The notes below the pieces were generated by a model. It did not search any database and was not told the DNA's origin. It was given only the letters and a program-made list of their open reading frames with translations. Source: a virus. Taken from it: a DNA stretch of 43,568 nt. Shown here piece after piece: positions 12,624-42,877 of the stretch (within the stretch, counting starts at the first letter, position 1; each line of letters starts with the position of its first letter). The DNA lies in IMG/VR virus record IMGVR_UViG_3300042905_001849, positions 1 through 43,568 of that record. The stretch is one strand, 5' to 3'. Made by a program: the position numbers and the translations under genes.

Positions 12624-12832
12624 CACGCTTCCTCCGGCGGCCCTGAGTCTTCCAGCAGCTCGACACAGCACGGGCAAAGATGCTGCAGGCTGTGACCGTC
12701 TGCCCGCTCGGTCCACGAGTGTTGGCGGACCTGCTGCAGCACTTCAGCACCATCAACGGCCTCGCGCACCGGCAACAGAATCTGCGTGTCGCAGTAGTCG
12801 CAGGTGATGCGTAGAATCATTTCCGCACTCAT
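12620..12832 (-). CDS. Small zinc-binding protein
   Basis: A 70-residue protein with two cysteine pairs, CDYC near residue 11 and CPCC near residue 52, plus a His between them (HSLQHLCPCC), a pattern for one structural zinc site. The middle is helical (EAVDGAEVLQQVRQHSWTER). It is coupled on both sides (ATGA upstream, GTGA downstream). Such small zinc proteins are common in phage early operons and may bind nucleic acid or protein. Confidence 0.65.
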   Translation of the reverse strand: MSAEMILRITCDYCDTQILLPVREAVDGAEVLQQVRQHSWTERADGHSLQHLCPCCVELLEDSGPPEEAW

Positions 12833-13023
12833 GGCACCCTCCCGACCATCCACCGGCTGCGTTTCTGCGCGTCGATTAACTGGACCAAATCCCACGTCTG
12901 TGCACCCGCTGCCGCCAGCAGGTTTCGCACGTTCAATTCTGCGGAATACTTCGCTGGTAAAATCAGCCGTTCGCCCGGCTTCATTGCCTGCAGCCGTGCC
13001 ACCAGTCGCCTGTCAATCATCAT
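12829..13023 (-). CDS. Unknown 64-residue protein
   Basis: A small basic protein (RRLVARLQAMKPGERLILPA, then SAELNVRNLLAAAGAQTWDL and KRSRWMVGRVP) with an alternating helix-strand pattern. It is coupled by ATGA to the CsrA-like gene upstream and to the zinc protein downstream. Its size and charge would suit nucleic acid binding, but nothing more can be said. Confidence 0.6.
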   Translation of the reverse strand: MMIDRRLVARLQAMKPGERLILPAKYSAELNVRNLLAAAGAQTWDLVQLIDAQKRSRWMVGRVP

Positions 13024-13289
13024 GGCTCTGGCCTCCCCTCCAGCTCTGCCCGCAGGATTTCGACGTCTCGCGGTGCGGAAAATGCCAGCCGTGCCCGGTC
13101 GCCGCGTATCTCGACCATCACCACCTCAATTGTGACATCACCACACCGGATGAGCACAGATTCCTGAGCCTTCCGCCCCAGCGTCAACACGCCGTTGCCG
13201 TCCGCATTCACTCGGAATTTTTTAACCTTGCTGACCGGCCTCGGTGCCTCCATTGGGACCGCTGCCACTGCTGCCTGTTTGCGTTTCAT
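13020..13289 (-). CDS. csrA: CsrA-like RNA-binding regulator
   Basis: An 89-residue protein. A basic 32-residue extension leads into a full CsrA domain at about 33-86: GVLTLGRKAQESVLIRCGD aligns with the first strand and turn of CsrA, and VTIEVVMVEIRGDRARLAFS and APRDVEILRAEL align with the following strands and helix. The two arginines that contact RNA in CsrA (R6 and R44 in E. coli) match R39 and R80 here. CsrA dimers bind GGA motifs at ribosome sites and change translation or mRNA stability. It is ATGA-coupled to rusA. Likely targets are host mRNAs or the phage's own GGA-containing leaders; the N-terminal extension is unusual. Confidence 0.85.
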   Translation of the reverse strand: MKRKQAAVAAVPMEAPRPVSKVKKFRVNADGNGVLTLGRKAQESVLIRCGDVTIEVVMVEIRGDRARLAFSAPRDVEILRAELEGRPEP

Positions 13290-13711
13290 GTTAGCTCCTC
13301 GATTGTGATTCCAATTCCACCGTGCTCAGCCCACAGCTTCCGCAGGACGTCGAACTGCCACACCCTGCTATCGTCACCAATCACCGGCAACAGTCCGTCC
13401 AACACCGCCTTCGCCAGATTGTCCAGATCCGGTTTTTGACAGTGCGGACTGTGCAGCAGTGCTGCGCGTTTTTTCTTGCTCCAACTGGCAGGCATCGGCA
13501 GATAAAACACCAACCCGAACACCAGCGGACCGTCGCCGACCTCGATACCTGCCTCACGCACTGCGTGCTGCAGTGCCAGCTTGTACCCGTGCACCGGGTG
13601 TTTCTTCGGCAGGTAGGATCTTGCCCGTCCGCCGATTGTCGATATCCGCTGCCGTGGCTGTGCCACTGGCGTGATGGGCACAAAGACGCTCCGTCGTCTT
13701 TCAGAACTCAT
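13286..13711 (-). CDS. rusA: RusA-family Holliday junction resolvase
   Basis: A 141-residue protein of normal RusA length. The family core is present: a basic N-terminal strand region, FGLVFYLPMPASWSKKKRAA near residues 65-83, the acidic metal-binding motif KPDLDNLAKAVLDGL (93-107, Asp95, Asp97, Asp105) and IGDDSRV (Asp113, Asp114). RusA dimers cut four-way DNA junctions. In phages it resolves recombination intermediates and can trim branched DNA before packaging. Its ATG lies two bases after the preceding stop, and it is ATGA-coupled to the CsrA-like gene. Confidence 0.93.
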   Translation of the reverse strand: MSSERRRSVFVPITPVAQPRQRISTIGGRARSYLPKKHPVHGYKLALQHAVREAGIEVGDGPLVFGLVFYLPMPASWSKKKRAALLHSPHCQKPDLDNLAKAVLDGLLPVIGDDSRVWQFDVLRKLWAEHGGIGITIEELT

Positions 13712-16524: not shown

Positions 16525-16550
16525 TGTCCTGATCCCTCAATGATTGCCAG

Positions 16551-16592: not shown

Positions 16593-16859
16593 TCAGCAGC
16601 CGCCAAACTCGACAACGCTCAGGCGGAATGCTTCGCCCTTGTCCGTCTTGCCCCACACATCGTAAGTGCATTCACCGTCGGCGTCTTCGACGCTCGCATT
16701 GGCTGCGTAGTCGATTTCGTCGATCCCTGTCAGCGCGTCTTCCATCCAGTCCAGATTGCCGGATGCTTCGACTCGCACGCGAACCTCAACCGTGCGGTCT
16801 TCGCTGATGCTGGTTGCGATTGCTGCGGACATCTTTGCGGCTCGTGTCGTCATCGTCAT
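16593..16859 (-). CDS. Acidic small protein, first gene of promoter 1 unit
   Basis: An 88-residue acidic protein. Two ATG codons lie six bases apart (16859 and 16853); the second has the better spacing from GGGAGA. The sequence has a helical Ala-rich start, then a strand-rich domain (VEVRVRVEASGNLDWMEDAL, ECTYDVWGKTDKGEAFRLSV). It is the only gene between promoter 1 and the hairpin at 16551-16577, so it forms a near-monocistronic unit. Small acidic early phage proteins often block host enzymes; that is only a possibility. Confidence 0.65.
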   Translation of the reverse strand: MTMTTRAAKMSAAIATSISEDRTVEVRVRVEASGNLDWMEDALTGIDEIDYAANASVEDADGECTYDVWGKTDKGEAFRLSVVEFGGC

Positions 16860-16883
16860 TCTCCCAGTTTTTTTGTGTCGCTT

Positions 16884-16899
16884 GCAACCCCTTAGTTGC
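16884..16899 (-). promoter_or_regulatory. Leader hairpin 1 with UAAGGG loop
   Basis: In the 5' leader of the 16593-16859 gene, GCAAC and GUUGC pair perfectly around the six-base loop UAAGGG. The same position of the other two leaders holds the same loop type on a different stem sequence, so the stem is conserved by pairing, not by sequence. Confidence 0.65.
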
Positions 16900-16911: not shown

Positions 16912-16939
16912 AGTCTACACTATCGGCACGGTGTGTCAA
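16912..16939 (-). promoter_or_regulatory. Promoter 1 of the repeated family
   Basis: On the minus strand: -35 TTGACA (16939-16934), a 16-base spacer ending in the invariant GTGCCGATAGTG, and -10 TAGACT (16917-16912). The invariant 12-mer recurs in promoters 2 and 3 and is longer than expected by chance, so it may be an operator or activator site overlapping the spacer. It lies in the 145-base gap after the cytosine methyltransferase gene. Confidence 0.75.
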
Positions 16940-17004: not shown

Positions 17005-17748
17005 TCAAATCTCGCCCTGCTGCTCAACGATGCGTCGTCCAATCCACTCAGCCACCTGTGGGACTACGGCGTTTCCGAGTCCTCGCAGTCGGTCCACCCT
17101 GGAGGGAATCCCATCAGATATTCCACCACTGTGACCGGCGGGTACACCAGATTCCACAACTGCCGAAAGTAGTCGCGTAAATTGTTCATTGGACCACGTT
17201 TCAGCCGTTTTTGCGACCTTCCCGCGCCTTTGCCGTCGCAGGCGTTTGGCGTCGGTGTGGTAGGCTGTGATAAACATTCTCTCGCGTAGGTGATGGTTGC
17301 CAAACTGCGCCGCGAATATGCAATCCCATTCCGCATCATACCCGATCGCGGCCAACGTCCCGAGAACTCTGTCCAGCCCCCGAGTAAGCAGCGCTGCCAC
17401 GTTCTCCAGCACCACGACTCTGGGCTGCAATTCTCGAACCACGCGAACGGCTTCGAAGAACAATCCGGACCGTTCGCCCTCAAGTCCTGCCCCGAGTCCG
17501 GCGTAGGAAATATCCTGACACGGGAACCCGCCGCAGACAACATCGACGGGCTGCAGGTTGTGTGCCCCACACTGCCGGATGTCTCGTTCTCTGTGAACTG
17601 CTGGCCAATGTTTTGCGAGCACTCTGTTGGCGTAATCGTCAATTTCCACCTGCCATTTGCAGACCATTCCAGCCCGCTCGAAACCCAAATCAAATCCGCC
17701 GATGCCTGCAAACAGGCTCCCGAATGTCAGCGATTGCCCGTCGCTCAC
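17005..17748 (-). CDS. dcm: C5-cytosine DNA methyltransferase
   Basis: A 247-residue protein with a GTG start four bases after the preceding stop. Motifs in order: I FAGIGGF (13-19, SAM binding), IV PCQ (76-78, catalytic Cys77), VI ENV (115-117), VIII QFGNHHLRERMFI (148-160) and X GLGNAVVPQV (233-242). It transfers methyl from SAM to cytosine C5 in a specific site. The target recognition stretch between VIII and IX is only about 70 residues, making the enzyme short for the family. No cognate restriction enzyme is present, so it is an orphan, probably protecting phage DNA from host restriction. Confidence 0.95.
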   Translation of the reverse strand: MSDGQSLTFGSLFAGIGGFDLGFERAGMVCKWQVEIDDYANRVLAKHWPAVHRERDIRQCGAHNLQPVDVVCGGFPCQDISYAGLGAGLEGERSGLFFEAVRVVRELQPRVVVLENVAALLTRGLDRVLGTLAAIGYDAEWDCIFAAQFGNHHLRERMFITAYHTDAKRLRRQRRGKVAKTAETWSNEQFTRLLSAVVESGVPAGHSGGISDGIPSRVDRLRGLGNAVVPQVAEWIGRRIVEQQGEI

Positions 17749-20947: not shown

Positions 20948-21381
20948 CGCCCCGCCCTCCGCTCCAAATACTGCTCTCGTGCTGTGTCCGGATTCCACCC
21001 CAAACATTCATAGACCGCCCGCCAGCGTTCCTCATGTGTCTCCGGCGTGCAGTCCTCCGCAGCCTGCAGCACCTCGCCTAATCGCCTATACGCCTGCCAC
21101 TGCCGCAACGTCTGCCGCCAGAATGTCTCAACGACATGCAACCACTCGCCCAGCCCGCAATCGTAAAATGTGCAGTCATGGCGGAACACCGCCCGATATC
21201 TCGGATCGTACTGCACATGACTCGTGCACGCTCCGCTGATGACCTCGCCCGTAATGCGTCCGTTGCGGTCGACCTCCAGAAACCAATCTGACACCACCGG
21301 GATTGGCGGACAGTGCTCCAGCAGGTGCTCACGCTCACGCGCTGCAAAGGCCCTCAAGGACTCCAGTTGTTGCTCACTCAT
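20944..21381 (-). CDS. Unknown 145-residue protein
   Basis: An acidic, Trp- and Cys-containing protein. The first part is helical (LESLRAFAAREREHLLEHCP). The middle is beta (VVSDWFLEVDRNGRITGEVI, YRAVFRHDCTFYDCGLGEWL). The end is helical again (WRQTLRQWQAYRRLGEVLQA). Cys residues in the middle (HDCTFYDCG) could bind a metal. ATGA-coupled to the HD-domain gene before it. No family recognised. Confidence 0.6.
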   Translation of the reverse strand: MSEQQLESLRAFAAREREHLLEHCPPIPVVSDWFLEVDRNGRITGEVISGACTSHVQYDPRYRAVFRHDCTFYDCGLGEWLHVVETFWRQTLRQWQAYRRLGEVLQAAEDCTPETHEERWRAVYECLGWNPDTAREQYLERRAGR

Positions 21382-21869
21382 GCCGCACCCCCGATCGTAA
21401 TGAATTCACGCACCAAATCCGCCCACGACTTCGCCGGAAACTGATACAGGTCATATGGTGCCCGACCCTGCTGTATCTGCTCCAACTCCCACGCGCCGAC
21501 GGCCCTGTCTGCAGCAATGACTGCCTCCCAGCTCATGCTGCCAGGCTGCGGAACTCGCATCGGCAACCGCCGCACGATTGCAGCGTCAATCTCATCCTGA
21601 TCCATCCGCAGCCGTGCTGTCACATATGGTCGCACCACGTCGCCTGTCAGCACCTCGTGGCAATCGTGCAGCAATGCCCACAGCCGCGCCCTGTCTGATG
21701 CCGTTGGGTCAGCGTCCACGCGCTCAAACACGTGCAGACTGTGCCGCAGCACAGTGCAGTTCGGCACCTGCCCGCCGAATCGGTTGATGCGGTGCAGGCA
21801 TTCCGCCACACGCTGCGGATCATTGCGGATTGCGTTTGCCAGTTGTTCGGGTGTTTGGATAAGACTCAT
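21378..21869 (-). CDS. HD-domain phosphohydrolase, complete paralogue
   Basis: A 163-residue HD-superfamily protein of the YfbR/5'-deoxynucleotidase-like type. Metal ligands in order: His43 (VLRHSL), His68-Asp69 (LLHDCHEVLTGDV) and Asp121 (AADRAVGAWELEQI). These enzymes remove phosphate from nucleotides. Residues 1-100 are nearly identical to the protein at 23880-24350, and the shared DNA around 21741-21790 is almost base-for-base the same, so the two are recent duplicates. This copy keeps the last ligand and so is likely active. A phage use could be altering nucleotide pools or countering nucleotide-signal defence. Confidence 0.85.
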   Translation of the reverse strand: MSLIQTPEQLANAIRNDPQRVAECLHRINRFGGQVPNCTVLRHSLHVFERVDADPTASDRARLWALLHDCHEVLTGDVVRPYVTARLRMDQDEIDAAIVRRLPMRVPQPGSMSWEAVIAADRAVGAWELEQIQQGRAPYDLYQFPAKSWADLVREFITIGGAA

Positions 21870-23879: not shown

Positions 23880-24350
23880 TCAAAAGCCCACATACCGAAA
23901 AATCTCCCTCGGCATACACCGAAGGGTGTTGAGGCAATGCGCTCGCATCGCCTGCTCTGTCACTGGCCGGCCCAGCTGCCGCTCGACCTCCTGCAGGAAG
24001 TCCCGCCACCTCGGCCTCTCCAAACCCATTTTCACCCACTCCCGATGCCGCCGCACAATCACCGCGTCAATTGCCTGCTGATCCATCCGCAAACGCGCAT
24101 TGACATAGGGGCGCACCACATCCCCCGTGAGTATCTCGTGGCAGTCATGCAGAAGTGCCCACAGCCGCGCACCGTTCGAAGCTTCCGGGTCAGCGTCAAT
24201 CCTGTAGTACACTTCCAGGCTGTGCCGCAGCACAGTGCAGTTCGGCACCTGTCCGCCGAATCGGTTGATCCGGCCCAAGCACGCCGCCACCCGCTCCGGG
24301 TCCGTGACGATTGCCTCTGCCAGTTGCTCTGCTGTTGTTATCAGTCCCAT
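23880..24350 (-). CDS. HD-domain phosphohydrolase paralogue, divergent C-terminus
   Basis: A 156-residue protein, nearly identical in its first 100 residues to the one at 21378-21869: His43, His68-Asp69 and the segment LLHDCHEILTGDVVRPYV are all kept. After residue 100 the sequences part. This copy has RRHREWVKMGLERPRWRDF and ends QAMRAHCLNTLRCMPREIF; it lacks the Asp-Arg-Ala segment that supplies the last metal ligand in the other. It may be inactive, regulatory or altered in substrate. It starts after GGAGGGG and follows a terminator, so it may begin a transcription unit. Confidence 0.75.
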   Translation of the reverse strand: MGLITTAEQLAEAIVTDPERVAACLGRINRFGGQVPNCTVLRHSLEVYYRIDADPEASNGARLWALLHDCHEILTGDVVRPYVNARLRMDQQAIDAVIVRRHREWVKMGLERPRWRDFLQEVERQLGRPVTEQAMRAHCLNTLRCMPREIFRYVGF

Positions 24351-24674: not shown

Positions 24675-24962
24675 TCAGGCCGTCTGCAGGTTCCGCTTCT
24701 GCCATCCGGCAACTACGCTCATCGCTGACCGCACTGCGGGCTGTGCTTTGAGTGCGGCAAAGTCGGATTCTGCCAGACGTCCAATCGCGTCTACAGCCGC
24801 TTCCATTGCCGTGTGGCATTCTGCGATCAACTCTGCCCGTCGGTGCATACGCTTAAAAATGGTTGTCGATGACAAGTGACCACTTGTCAGGCTGTAATTG
24901 ACTTCTTCGCTGAATGCTGCTGCGGCTGCCAGAATCAGAGTTTTTGCTGTGTTGACTTCCAT
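24675..24962 (-). CDS. Small helical protein, first gene of promoter 2 unit
   Basis: A 95-residue, Ala-rich helical protein (TAKTLILAAAAAFSEEVNYS, RRAELIAECHTAMEAAVDAI, GWQKRNLQTA). It starts at the ATG following a GGGAGA site in the leader of promoter 2. The leader shares the hairpin and the sequence ACAAACACTCAA with the LPD29 gene leader, so both respond to the same control. It is followed by the 29-residue peptide. Function unknown. Confidence 0.65.
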   Translation of the reverse strand: MEVNTAKTLILAAAAAFSEEVNYSLTSGHLSSTTIFKRMHRRAELIAECHTAMEAAVDAIGRLAESDFAALKAQPAVRSAMSVVAGWQKRNLQTA

Positions 24963-24995
24963 CACTGTATCTCCCGGTCTTGAGTGTTTGTTCCT

Positions 24996-25011
24996 CGCGG
25001 CCCTTACCGCA
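24996..25011 (-). promoter_or_regulatory. Leader hairpin 2 with UAAGGG loop
   Basis: UGCGG pairs with CCGCG (one U-G pair) around the loop UAAGGG in the leader of the gene at 24675-24962. It stands at the same distance from the promoter family's -10 box as in the LPD29 leader and shows the same loop with a changed stem compared with leader 1. Confidence 0.65.
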
Positions 25012-25018
25012 CGTCCAC

Positions 25019-25046
25019 ATCTTACACTATCGGCACAACGTGTCAA
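25019..25046 (-). promoter_or_regulatory. Promoter 2 of the repeated family
   Basis: On the minus strand: -35 TTGACA (25046-25041), a 16-base spacer with GTGCCGATAGTG at its end, and -10 TAAGAT (25024-25019). It lies just downstream of the terminator that closes the LPD29 unit, so it restarts transcription. Confidence 0.8.
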
Positions 25047-25112: not shown

Positions 25113-25685
25113 TCAGGCTGTTGCCAGTTCTTCCGTTCGTCGCATCCAGTAATCCAGCGTTTCTCCGTCGTGATACAGCTTCCAACTTTCTGCCCCGTTG
25201 TCATTGATGCCGTACCGTTGTACGGCTCGCTTCCGCAGGTCTGCTGTGTACTCGGCTGACAGTTCCCGCACCGGGCTGATGTATTTCACATTGCTGTCAA
25301 CCAGAACGGCTCCCGGCTCGGGGCAGTCGGTTGCGTATCCCTTGACGTGCCCCATTGAACCTGAAGTGCCACGGCTTTCGGCTGAAGCCATTTCGCCGGA
25401 CGGCAGCAGCCAGTTACGGCTGATGTATTCCAGATCAATGCTGCCATCAAACCCGCCGAAGGTGAACTGACGGCAGATGTCCAGCACCTGACCGCTGCGG
25501 GGTCCGTCTGTCCAGCATACCCTCATTGCGTTGCTGTCACTGCGGACGCTGAATTTGACCACTGGGAACGCCTTCTTCAGGGCTGCCCGAATCAGGACTG
25601 CAACGTCCTTCGCTGCCAGATAGGCAATGCCGCGTTCGTTGCGACTGTTGCGGGCGGTTTCGATGATCGTCTTGACGTTTGCCAT
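25113..25685 (-). CDS. LPD29-domain protein, promoter 3 unit
   Basis: A 190-residue protein. The region from about 22 (LAAKDVAVLIRAALKKAFPV, VKFSVRSDSN) to about 85 (VCWTDGPRSGQVLDICRQF, FGGFDGSIDLEY) matches the LPD29 domain of large polyvalent and small phage or plasmid proteins, whose molecular job is unknown. The rest has a short Cys-containing middle and a helical end (YTADLRKRAVQRYGINDNG). It forms its own unit: promoter 3, leader hairpin, gene, terminator. The leader has ACAGGAC just before the ATG, which is a good CsrA-type site. Strong isolated expression suggests an early phage function. Confidence 0.8.
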   Translation of the reverse strand: MANVKTIIETARNSRNERGIAYLAAKDVAVLIRAALKKAFPVVKFSVRSDSNAMRVCWTDGPRSGQVLDICRQFTFGGFDGSIDLEYISRNWLLPSGEMASAESRGTSGSMGHVKGYATDCPEPGAVLVDSNVKYISPVRELSAEYTADLRKRAVQRYGINDNGAESWKLYHDGETLDYWMRRTEELATA

Positions 25686-25717
25686 TGTCCTGTCTCCCGG
25701 TTTGAGTGTTTGTCCCT

Positions 25718-25733
25718 CGCGGCCCTCACCGCG
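25718..25733 (-). promoter_or_regulatory. Leader hairpin 3 with UGAGGG loop
   Basis: CGCGG and CCGCG pair perfectly around the loop UGAGGG in the leader of the LPD29 gene. Compared with leader 1 (GCAAC/GUUGC) every stem position that differs is compensated, which supports an RNA structure. Confidence 0.7.
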
Positions 25734-25741
25734 ATGGATGT

Positions 25742-25769
25742 AGAATACACTATCGGCACCGCATGTCAA
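25742..25769 (-). promoter_or_regulatory. Promoter 3 of the repeated family
   Basis: On the minus strand: -35 TTGACA (25769-25764), a 16-base spacer ending GTGCCGATAGTG, and -10 TATTCT (25747-25742). Upstream, between the glycosyltransferase stop and the promoter, is a small AAUCU-UUCG-AGAUU hairpin. This 119-base gap holds nothing else. Confidence 0.8.
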
Positions 25770-41830: not shown

Positions 41831-42089
41831 TCACCTGAACTCCTACGTTGACCACTGGGGCGGTGTTCTGCGTTGGCAATGGATGATTCTGCGCATTCAT
41901 CGCAATCAACACCCGCGCTGCTGCATTCTTTTCGCGATTGCTTCCGGTGGCCAATATCTGCCCGATCACAATTCCGGCTCGCTCAAACAGCGCATCCGGA
42001 ATCTGCCAACTTTTGCGGATTGCTGTCTCGACTTCCCGCAGGTCCTTGCGGGTATGTGCCGGATCAGTCAGCAGTGTGGTTTCGGTCAT
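41736..42089 (-). CDS. Terminase-adjacent small protein (TerS candidate)
   Basis: A 117-residue protein. Its helical N-terminal half (TRKDLREVETAIRKSWQIPD, GIVIGQILATGSNREKNAAA) is followed by a Pro/Asn linker and a short strand VNVGVQVNGSGN, then a basic helix. The gene is directly upstream of terminase large and coupled to the Mom-like gene by ATGA. TerS proteins have this size and place, with DNA-binding helices at the start, but the sequence is not diagnostic. Confidence 0.5.
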   Translation of the reverse strand: MTETTLLTDPAHTRKDLREVETAIRKSWQIPDALFERAGIVIGQILATGSNREKNAAARVLIAMNAQNHPLPTQNTAPVVNVGVQVNGSGNTDAGRTLASAIAERIRANRISQQPAG

Positions 42090-42877
42090 TGTGTTTGCTC
42101 CGATGTCTGTTCTGAATCGGAAAGCGTCCGGGTCGGATTTGCACCGCCCACTTCAGGCTGGTCGCCTGACGTGTCGCTATCAACACTTCGGACGCGTGGT
42201 TTCCCTTTGTACATTCCGGCCCCTCGCCGGTCAATCTCTGAGAACGGAAGAATCGGAACTGTGAGGCGTTCGCGGGCGGTTGGGTCGATGAAATAGATGT
42301 AGCGAAGTTGAAAGCCTGGCAATGGCGCACCGCCGCTGTTTGCAAAGAAACTCATTGATGATGCGCCTCCGGTTTGGCTTGCGTGCTTCATGCTTCCAAT
42401 TCCGGGGCGAAGTGTTGAGGTCGCAATAACCTTGCCGTCACCTAATTTCCAAATCTCTTTATTTTGCTTGATCCCCGTCAGCACGAATCCGCTTGCTCGA
42501 TAGATCGTTCCATCTCCACACTGGCAACCATCCGCAAACGACACGCACCACTTCAACTGTGGGTACTGCTTCCGCATCCAGCGAAACGCAAAACCCAACG
42601 CCCGGCTTTCCCCGTTGCGTGGCAGCCAGTCCGCAAACGCCATCCGGTTCAATTCGATGAACTCATTCCACAGCGTACCACGCACCAGCCCCTGAATCTT
42701 TCGCTTATCCAATGACGGCCCGAATTGCATCGCTCCGCCACACTTGCCATCGAGAAACACGCCTAAGTGCAACTGCGAATTTTGCACCGTCTTGCCGCTG
42801 TAGTGCAGGCTTTGCACGATGCGGTTGGCGTCCTTTGCAGATATCGGCTTTACGATCAATCGCTTCGCGTCACCCAT
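42086..42877 (-). CDS. mom: Mom-like DNA adenine modification protein
   Basis: A 263-residue protein. The first 190 residues match phage Mu Mom: LHYSGKTVQNSQLHLGVFL, GGAMQFGPSLDKRKIQGLV, WNEFIELNRMAFADWLPRN, RALGFAFRWMRKQYPQLKWC, and SFADGCQCGDGTIYRASGF. Mom proteins convert adenine to N6-(methylcarbamoyl)adenine, which blocks many restriction enzymes. The C-terminal 70 residues are unlike Mom and hydrophilic (DTSGDQPEVGGANPTRTLSD). The gene overlaps the ParB-like stop by eight bases. Expression with late genes would fit modification before packaging, but no Com-type translational activator has been proved. Confidence 0.88.
   Translation of the reverse strand: MGDAKRLIVKPISAKDANRIVQSLHYSGKTVQNSQLHLGVFLDGKCGGAMQFGPSLDKRKIQGLVRGTLWNEFIELNRMAFADWLPRNGESRALGFAFRWMRKQYPQLKWCVSFADGCQCGDGTIYRASGFVLTGIKQNKEIWKLGDGKVIATSTLRPGIGSMKHASQTGGASSMSFFANSGGAPLPGFQLRYIYFIDPTARERLTVPILPFSEIDRRGAGMYKGKPRVRSVDSDTSGDQPEVGGANPTRTLSDSEQTSEQTQ

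Follow-up and report, generated by a model that had tools for sequence, protein, structure and literature searches.

The window, the whole 43,568-base stretch of virus DNA analysed here, carries one copy of a csrA-family gene (13020–13289, minus strand; 89 aa). We consider it probable (about 0.6) that the product of this gene, which is kept in a replication-region operon, is an RNA-binding protein of the CsrA family that likely forms a dimer and has host mRNAs as its likeliest targets. Phage csrA genes as such are already known, and 30 csrA-carrying phages had been catalogued by 2020 (Sobrero and Valverde 2020, PMC7366521). Plaques of phage PTXU04 became much smaller when its csrA homologue (PTXU04_00028) was knocked down, as reported in 2025 (PMC11879866), and the csrA copy of JC1, gp47, may be virion-associated, judging from one peptide (PMC9144972).

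The product matches the PF02599 profile with 47.8 bits (Pfam cut-off, 27) over residues 35–83, which correspond to the CsrA core (13041–13187, minus strand). It also matches PHROG 9500 (‘CsrA-like regulator’) at 8.6e-6, the CsrA-like families of the phage library matching weakly, and its PDB relatives by sequence are CsrA/RsmA proteins. The NCBIfam CsrA equivalog model TIGR00202 gives only 39.3 bits against a cut-off of 70.1, which indicates that the phage protein is divergent; judged by its sequence, it is a CsrA family member that is not classed with the bacterial CsrA equivalogs. Compared with the E. coli, B. subtilis and P. aeruginosa proteins, it keeps the equivalents of L4, R6, E10, G27, A36, P37, R44 and E46, and the same eight positions are constant in 13 aligned sequences of the lineage. 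These include the RNA-contact equivalents L37, R39 and R80 (L4, R6 and R44), which are invariant in the lineage. The earlier note had described a phage-encoded CsrA that retains the arginines equivalent to R6 and R44, and these are indeed Arg39 (codon 13173–13175, minus strand) and Arg80 (codon 13050–13052, minus strand), which line up with the two E. coli arginines and are the same in every sequence. The Thr5 position is occupied by Gly, and the C-terminal part is short, ending about six residues past the equivalent of E46.

Searches of IMG/VR recovered 18 csrA loci, 17 of which, in uncultured phage contigs, have a full-length relative (76–100% identity). In the single metagenomic contig L019 (4260–4600), an internal deletion that may be an assembly artefact takes out most of the core, and the frame appears to continue into the following ORF. 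The gene lies in a fixed neighbourhood: its start overlaps by 4 nt with rusA (13286–13711, minus strand; PF05866, 73.9 bits; PHROG 140), and its end overlaps by 4 nt with a 64-aa ORF (12829–13023, minus strand) that directly follows csrA in the lineage contigs covering the site and has no match among the Pfam, NCBIfam and PHROG profiles. Every lineage contig that covers the place of csrA contains it, and every one that reaches the site has the order rusA, csrA, 64-aa ORF. Using the 64-aa ORF as the query retrieved this set of contigs again and added three truncated contigs, which start within or near that ORF. The neighbouring rusA has been swapped between contigs (43–99% identity) and csrA remains, and leaders recombine with csrA alleles among the lineage contigs. 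The dN/dS ratio across csrA is 0.11–0.41, with the N-terminal extension evolving somewhat faster than the core; by this measure, csrA is under purifying selection.

A search of 84,980 bacterial and archaeal genomes (GTDB) gave no csrA relatives, and named phage records gave only two weak matches, both to the csrA core. The window’s 402-aa methyltransferase likewise has no relatives in GTDB genomes, the host search returned no plasmid match, and the capsid and helicase proteins are only 23–28% identical to those of named phages. Elsewhere, the window encodes a Mom-family DNA modification protein (42086–42877, minus strand; PF25680, 173.5 bits) and, alongside it in the gene complement, a C5-cytosine methylase (17005–17748). 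Two similar YfbR-like HD-domain proteins (21378–21869 and about 24000–24350, minus strand) both contain INRFGGQVPNCTVLRHS, which suggests a duplicated nucleotidase gene.

The predicted fold is compatible with the family assignment, with a caveat. A model built from the lineage-only alignment was set aside as too poor (pLDDT of 50) and had no CsrA among its matches, which is unsurprising because the CsrA chain is interlocked within the dimer. Adding canonical phage CsrAs to the alignment raised the pLDDT to 72, and the top 11 PDB matches of this deeper-alignment model in Foldseek were all CsrA/RsmA (probability 0.77–1.00; best E value 0.043, which is weak). The alignment itself contained CsrA homologues, so the Foldseek result supports the CsrA fold without being independent proof of it. 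The structure prediction covered a single chain.

Ahead of the core is a basic N-terminal extension (residues 1–33; 13191–13289, minus strand), delimited in the 13-sequence alignment. It has 8 K/R against 2 D/E and includes the invariant stretches MKR, AVAAVP and KKFR. The 32-residue basic extension of the earlier note is 33 residues long in this alignment and conserved, and the structure prediction proposed there as a check shows residues 1–15 as disordered (pLDDT <50). A pattern scan identified 206 IMG/VR stretches that encode close relatives of canonical CsrA. None of the 27 canonical phage CsrAs that were examined from this set has a long N-terminal extension; all 27 align from residue 1, most with a ribosome site immediately 5′, so the extension, judged on these 27, is unusual. 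The phage protein shares with the CsrA/RsmA family (PF02599), phage copies included, the core domain, the L4/R6/A36/P37/R44/E46 set and a phage-borne setting. It differs from canonical phage CsrAs in its conserved basic extension, shorter C-terminus and Thr5-to-Gly change, and in the placement of its gene between rusA and the 64-aa ORF. In another canonical phage CsrA (L200, 3001–3519), the ORF goes on past the CsrA part for about 110 residues, which form a C-terminal extension.

Together, these features suggest how the protein could act. The lineage would keep csrA as part of the rusA–csrA–64-aa ORF operon in the replication region, and the product would most likely be a dimer, like other CsrA proteins. 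Its beta1 and beta5 surfaces (L37, R39, R80 and E82) would grip AGG- or GGA-type RNA and thereby either prevent or allow the binding of ribosomes, and the basic tail at the N-terminus would add RNA affinity. By default, the likeliest targets would be host mRNAs that carry the usual A(N)GGA sites. Within the phage itself, the best candidate targets would be a set of hairpin leaders in which a URAGGG loop is followed by YGGGAG, rather than the ACAGGAC-type sites proposed before.

The sites in question are ACAGGAC (25687–25693, minus strand), which abuts the A-ATG at the start of the LPD29 gene (PF18847, 64.6 bits), and CAGGACA (16525–16531, minus strand), directly before the ATG of an 81-aa gene. 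Both are where the earlier note placed them, and the GGA-type ribosome sites that it reported for the promoter-family leaders are present as GGGAG. Its reading was that CsrA could time phage genes through such sites, besides possibly rewiring host carbon storage or motility. The two sites do resemble the CsrB repeats CAGGA(U/A/C)G and are conserved in the single orthologue found for each gene (LPD29, in contig L122; 81-aa gene, in L019), which is weak support at best. We regard CsrA action at these two sites as very unlikely, and we reject the two motifs as operators. ACAGGAC occurs 12 times in the window against 6.4 expected, a count reached in 4 of 100 shuffles, and at only one of 48 start regions; ACANGGA occurs at none of the 48, and A(N)GGA, at 10 against 11.5 after shuffling, is no commoner than chance. 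The sole enriched motif in start regions is AGGA, as ribosome sites require it. Predicted folds place neither GGA in a hairpin loop, and almost none of the other leaders in this promoter family has the motifs. Both genes are also accessory: of the first 22 loci of the csrA lineage, none has an LPD29 match and one has the 81-aa gene. Matches to the SELEX consensus RUACARGGAUGU with up to three mismatches were rarer than expected (49 against 69.7), and no canonical ANGGAN hexaloops were found near starts. Weighing against the CsrA reading of the protein itself, no CsrB-like decoy RNA was found, Rfam gave no match up to E = 1, and GGA sites are not enriched.

The URAGGG hairpins, which the earlier note does not mention, keep the promoter-family leaders plausible as candidate targets. 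Three genes of the window, all on the minus strand, share a promoter of the form TTGACA-N4-GTGCCGATAGTG-TAnnnT followed by a hairpin. The LPD29 gene (25113–25685) has its promoter at 25742–25769, the hairpin UCGCGG-UGAGGG-CCGCGA at 25717–25734 and CCGGGAG at 25694–25700. For a 95-aa gene (24675–24962), the corresponding elements are at 25019–25046, 24996–25011 (UGCGG-UAAGGG-CCGCG) and 24971–24977 (CCGGGAG), and for an 88-aa gene (16593–16859), they are at 16912–16939, 16884–16899 (GCAAC-UAAGGG-GUUGC) and 16861–16867 (CTGGGAG). In related contigs, at least 10 different stems occur, yet every hexaloop reads UGAGGG or UAAGGG, and the genes behind these leaders encode many unrelated small proteins. 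A hairpin of at least 5 bp follows 29 of 30 lineage promoters of this type, counted without selection on loop sequence, though a few overlapping loci may count twice. The loop is URAGGG in all 29 and in none has the A(N)GGA expected of a CsrA target hairpin. Unrelated phages have 17 promoters that share the spacer motif, and none of these is followed by a URAGGG hairpin. The stems covary strongly: in an alignment of 24 distinct hairpins, chosen by loop sequence, both positions of each of the six pairs vary, pairing is kept in 94.4% of cells, and covariation scores 0.974, compared with 0.05–0.23 for controls with slid partners. Unrelated phages (L167, L169, L172 and L175), for which no named relative was found, also repeat TGCCGATA as the spacer motif between TTGACA and the -10 box, but have no hairpin. 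The motif resembles the sigma-28 -10 element GCCGATAA, or may reflect a promoter feature common to the hosts.

That the loop stays constant in the lineage while its stems change, and is missing from the unrelated phages, speaks for a self-regulon, in which a CsrA of shifted specificity binds URAGGG, bridges to YGGGAG and times small phage genes. The layout, with YGGGAG 18–25 nt after the loop, also resembles that of the CsrA-repressed glgC leader of E. coli. There too a site in a hairpin loop lies ahead of a ribosome site containing GGA (some 20 nt on in the phage leaders), and CsrA tethered to the loop reaches across to the ribosome site (PMC7652899). Here, however, the loop is URAGGG and not GGA-containing, and the phage CsrA would be only a putative reader. 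Sites selected by SELEX with E. coli and C. jejuni CsrA contain GGA without exception, whereas the phage loop reads AGGG and ends in GGG, and the leader stems of 5–8 bp are longer than those of most SELEX hairpins. RsmE can use AGGA without the N (PMC4005645), which puts the URAGGG loop one base away from an accepted site. The side chain of RsmE Thr5 contacts the loop-closing pair (PMC4005645); that pair is G-C in 13 and C-G in 11 of the 24 hairpins, and these, together with the Gly at the Thr5 position, could fit an altered reading of the loop, although this is suggestive only. Every hairpin contig shares proteins with the window, many short ones stopping before the csrA region. The cassette and csrA are therefore features of a single lineage, and their co-occurrence is not independent evidence. 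On balance we find the self-regulon unlikely, and its stronger form, in which the extended phage CsrA has a loop specificity for URAGGG instead of A(N)GGA and controls the whole promoter–hairpin–ribosome-site cassette as a regulon, a shade more doubtful.

We lean slightly towards hairpin leaders that are unrelated to CsrA and serve as 5′ stabilisers, as a ribosome standby site with a Shine–Dalgarno-like loop, or as the target of another phage or host factor. UAAGG and UGAGG can pair with the 3′ end of a typical 16S rRNA (CCUUA), and having A or G at the R position would be consistent with an A-U or a G-U pair there. Against this, the loop invariably ends in G, although an A at that position would match the rRNA tail better, and a pure stabiliser would need no invariant loop on changing stems. 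A comparable case is the start-associated SAS/ESAS of cluster K mycobacteriophages, whose reader is not known and which is likewise a repeated inverted-repeat element before the ribosome sites of unrelated genes (PMC3203893). Its sequence differs from that of the cassette, which combines a sigma-70-type promoter with a fixed hexaloop on changing stems, and the 13-bp GGGATAGGAGCCC that SAS/ESAS has at the ribosome site is absent from the leaders, which carry YGGGAG in a different sequence.

Phage-borne csrA is common, but the cited phage csrA papers report a phenotype for only one such gene and known targets for none. A lineage with csrA everywhere and a covarying leader hairpin provides a defined set of RNAs for testing phage self-control. 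Should something other than CsrA read it, the cassette would still be a start-associated element not described before and in need of a reader.
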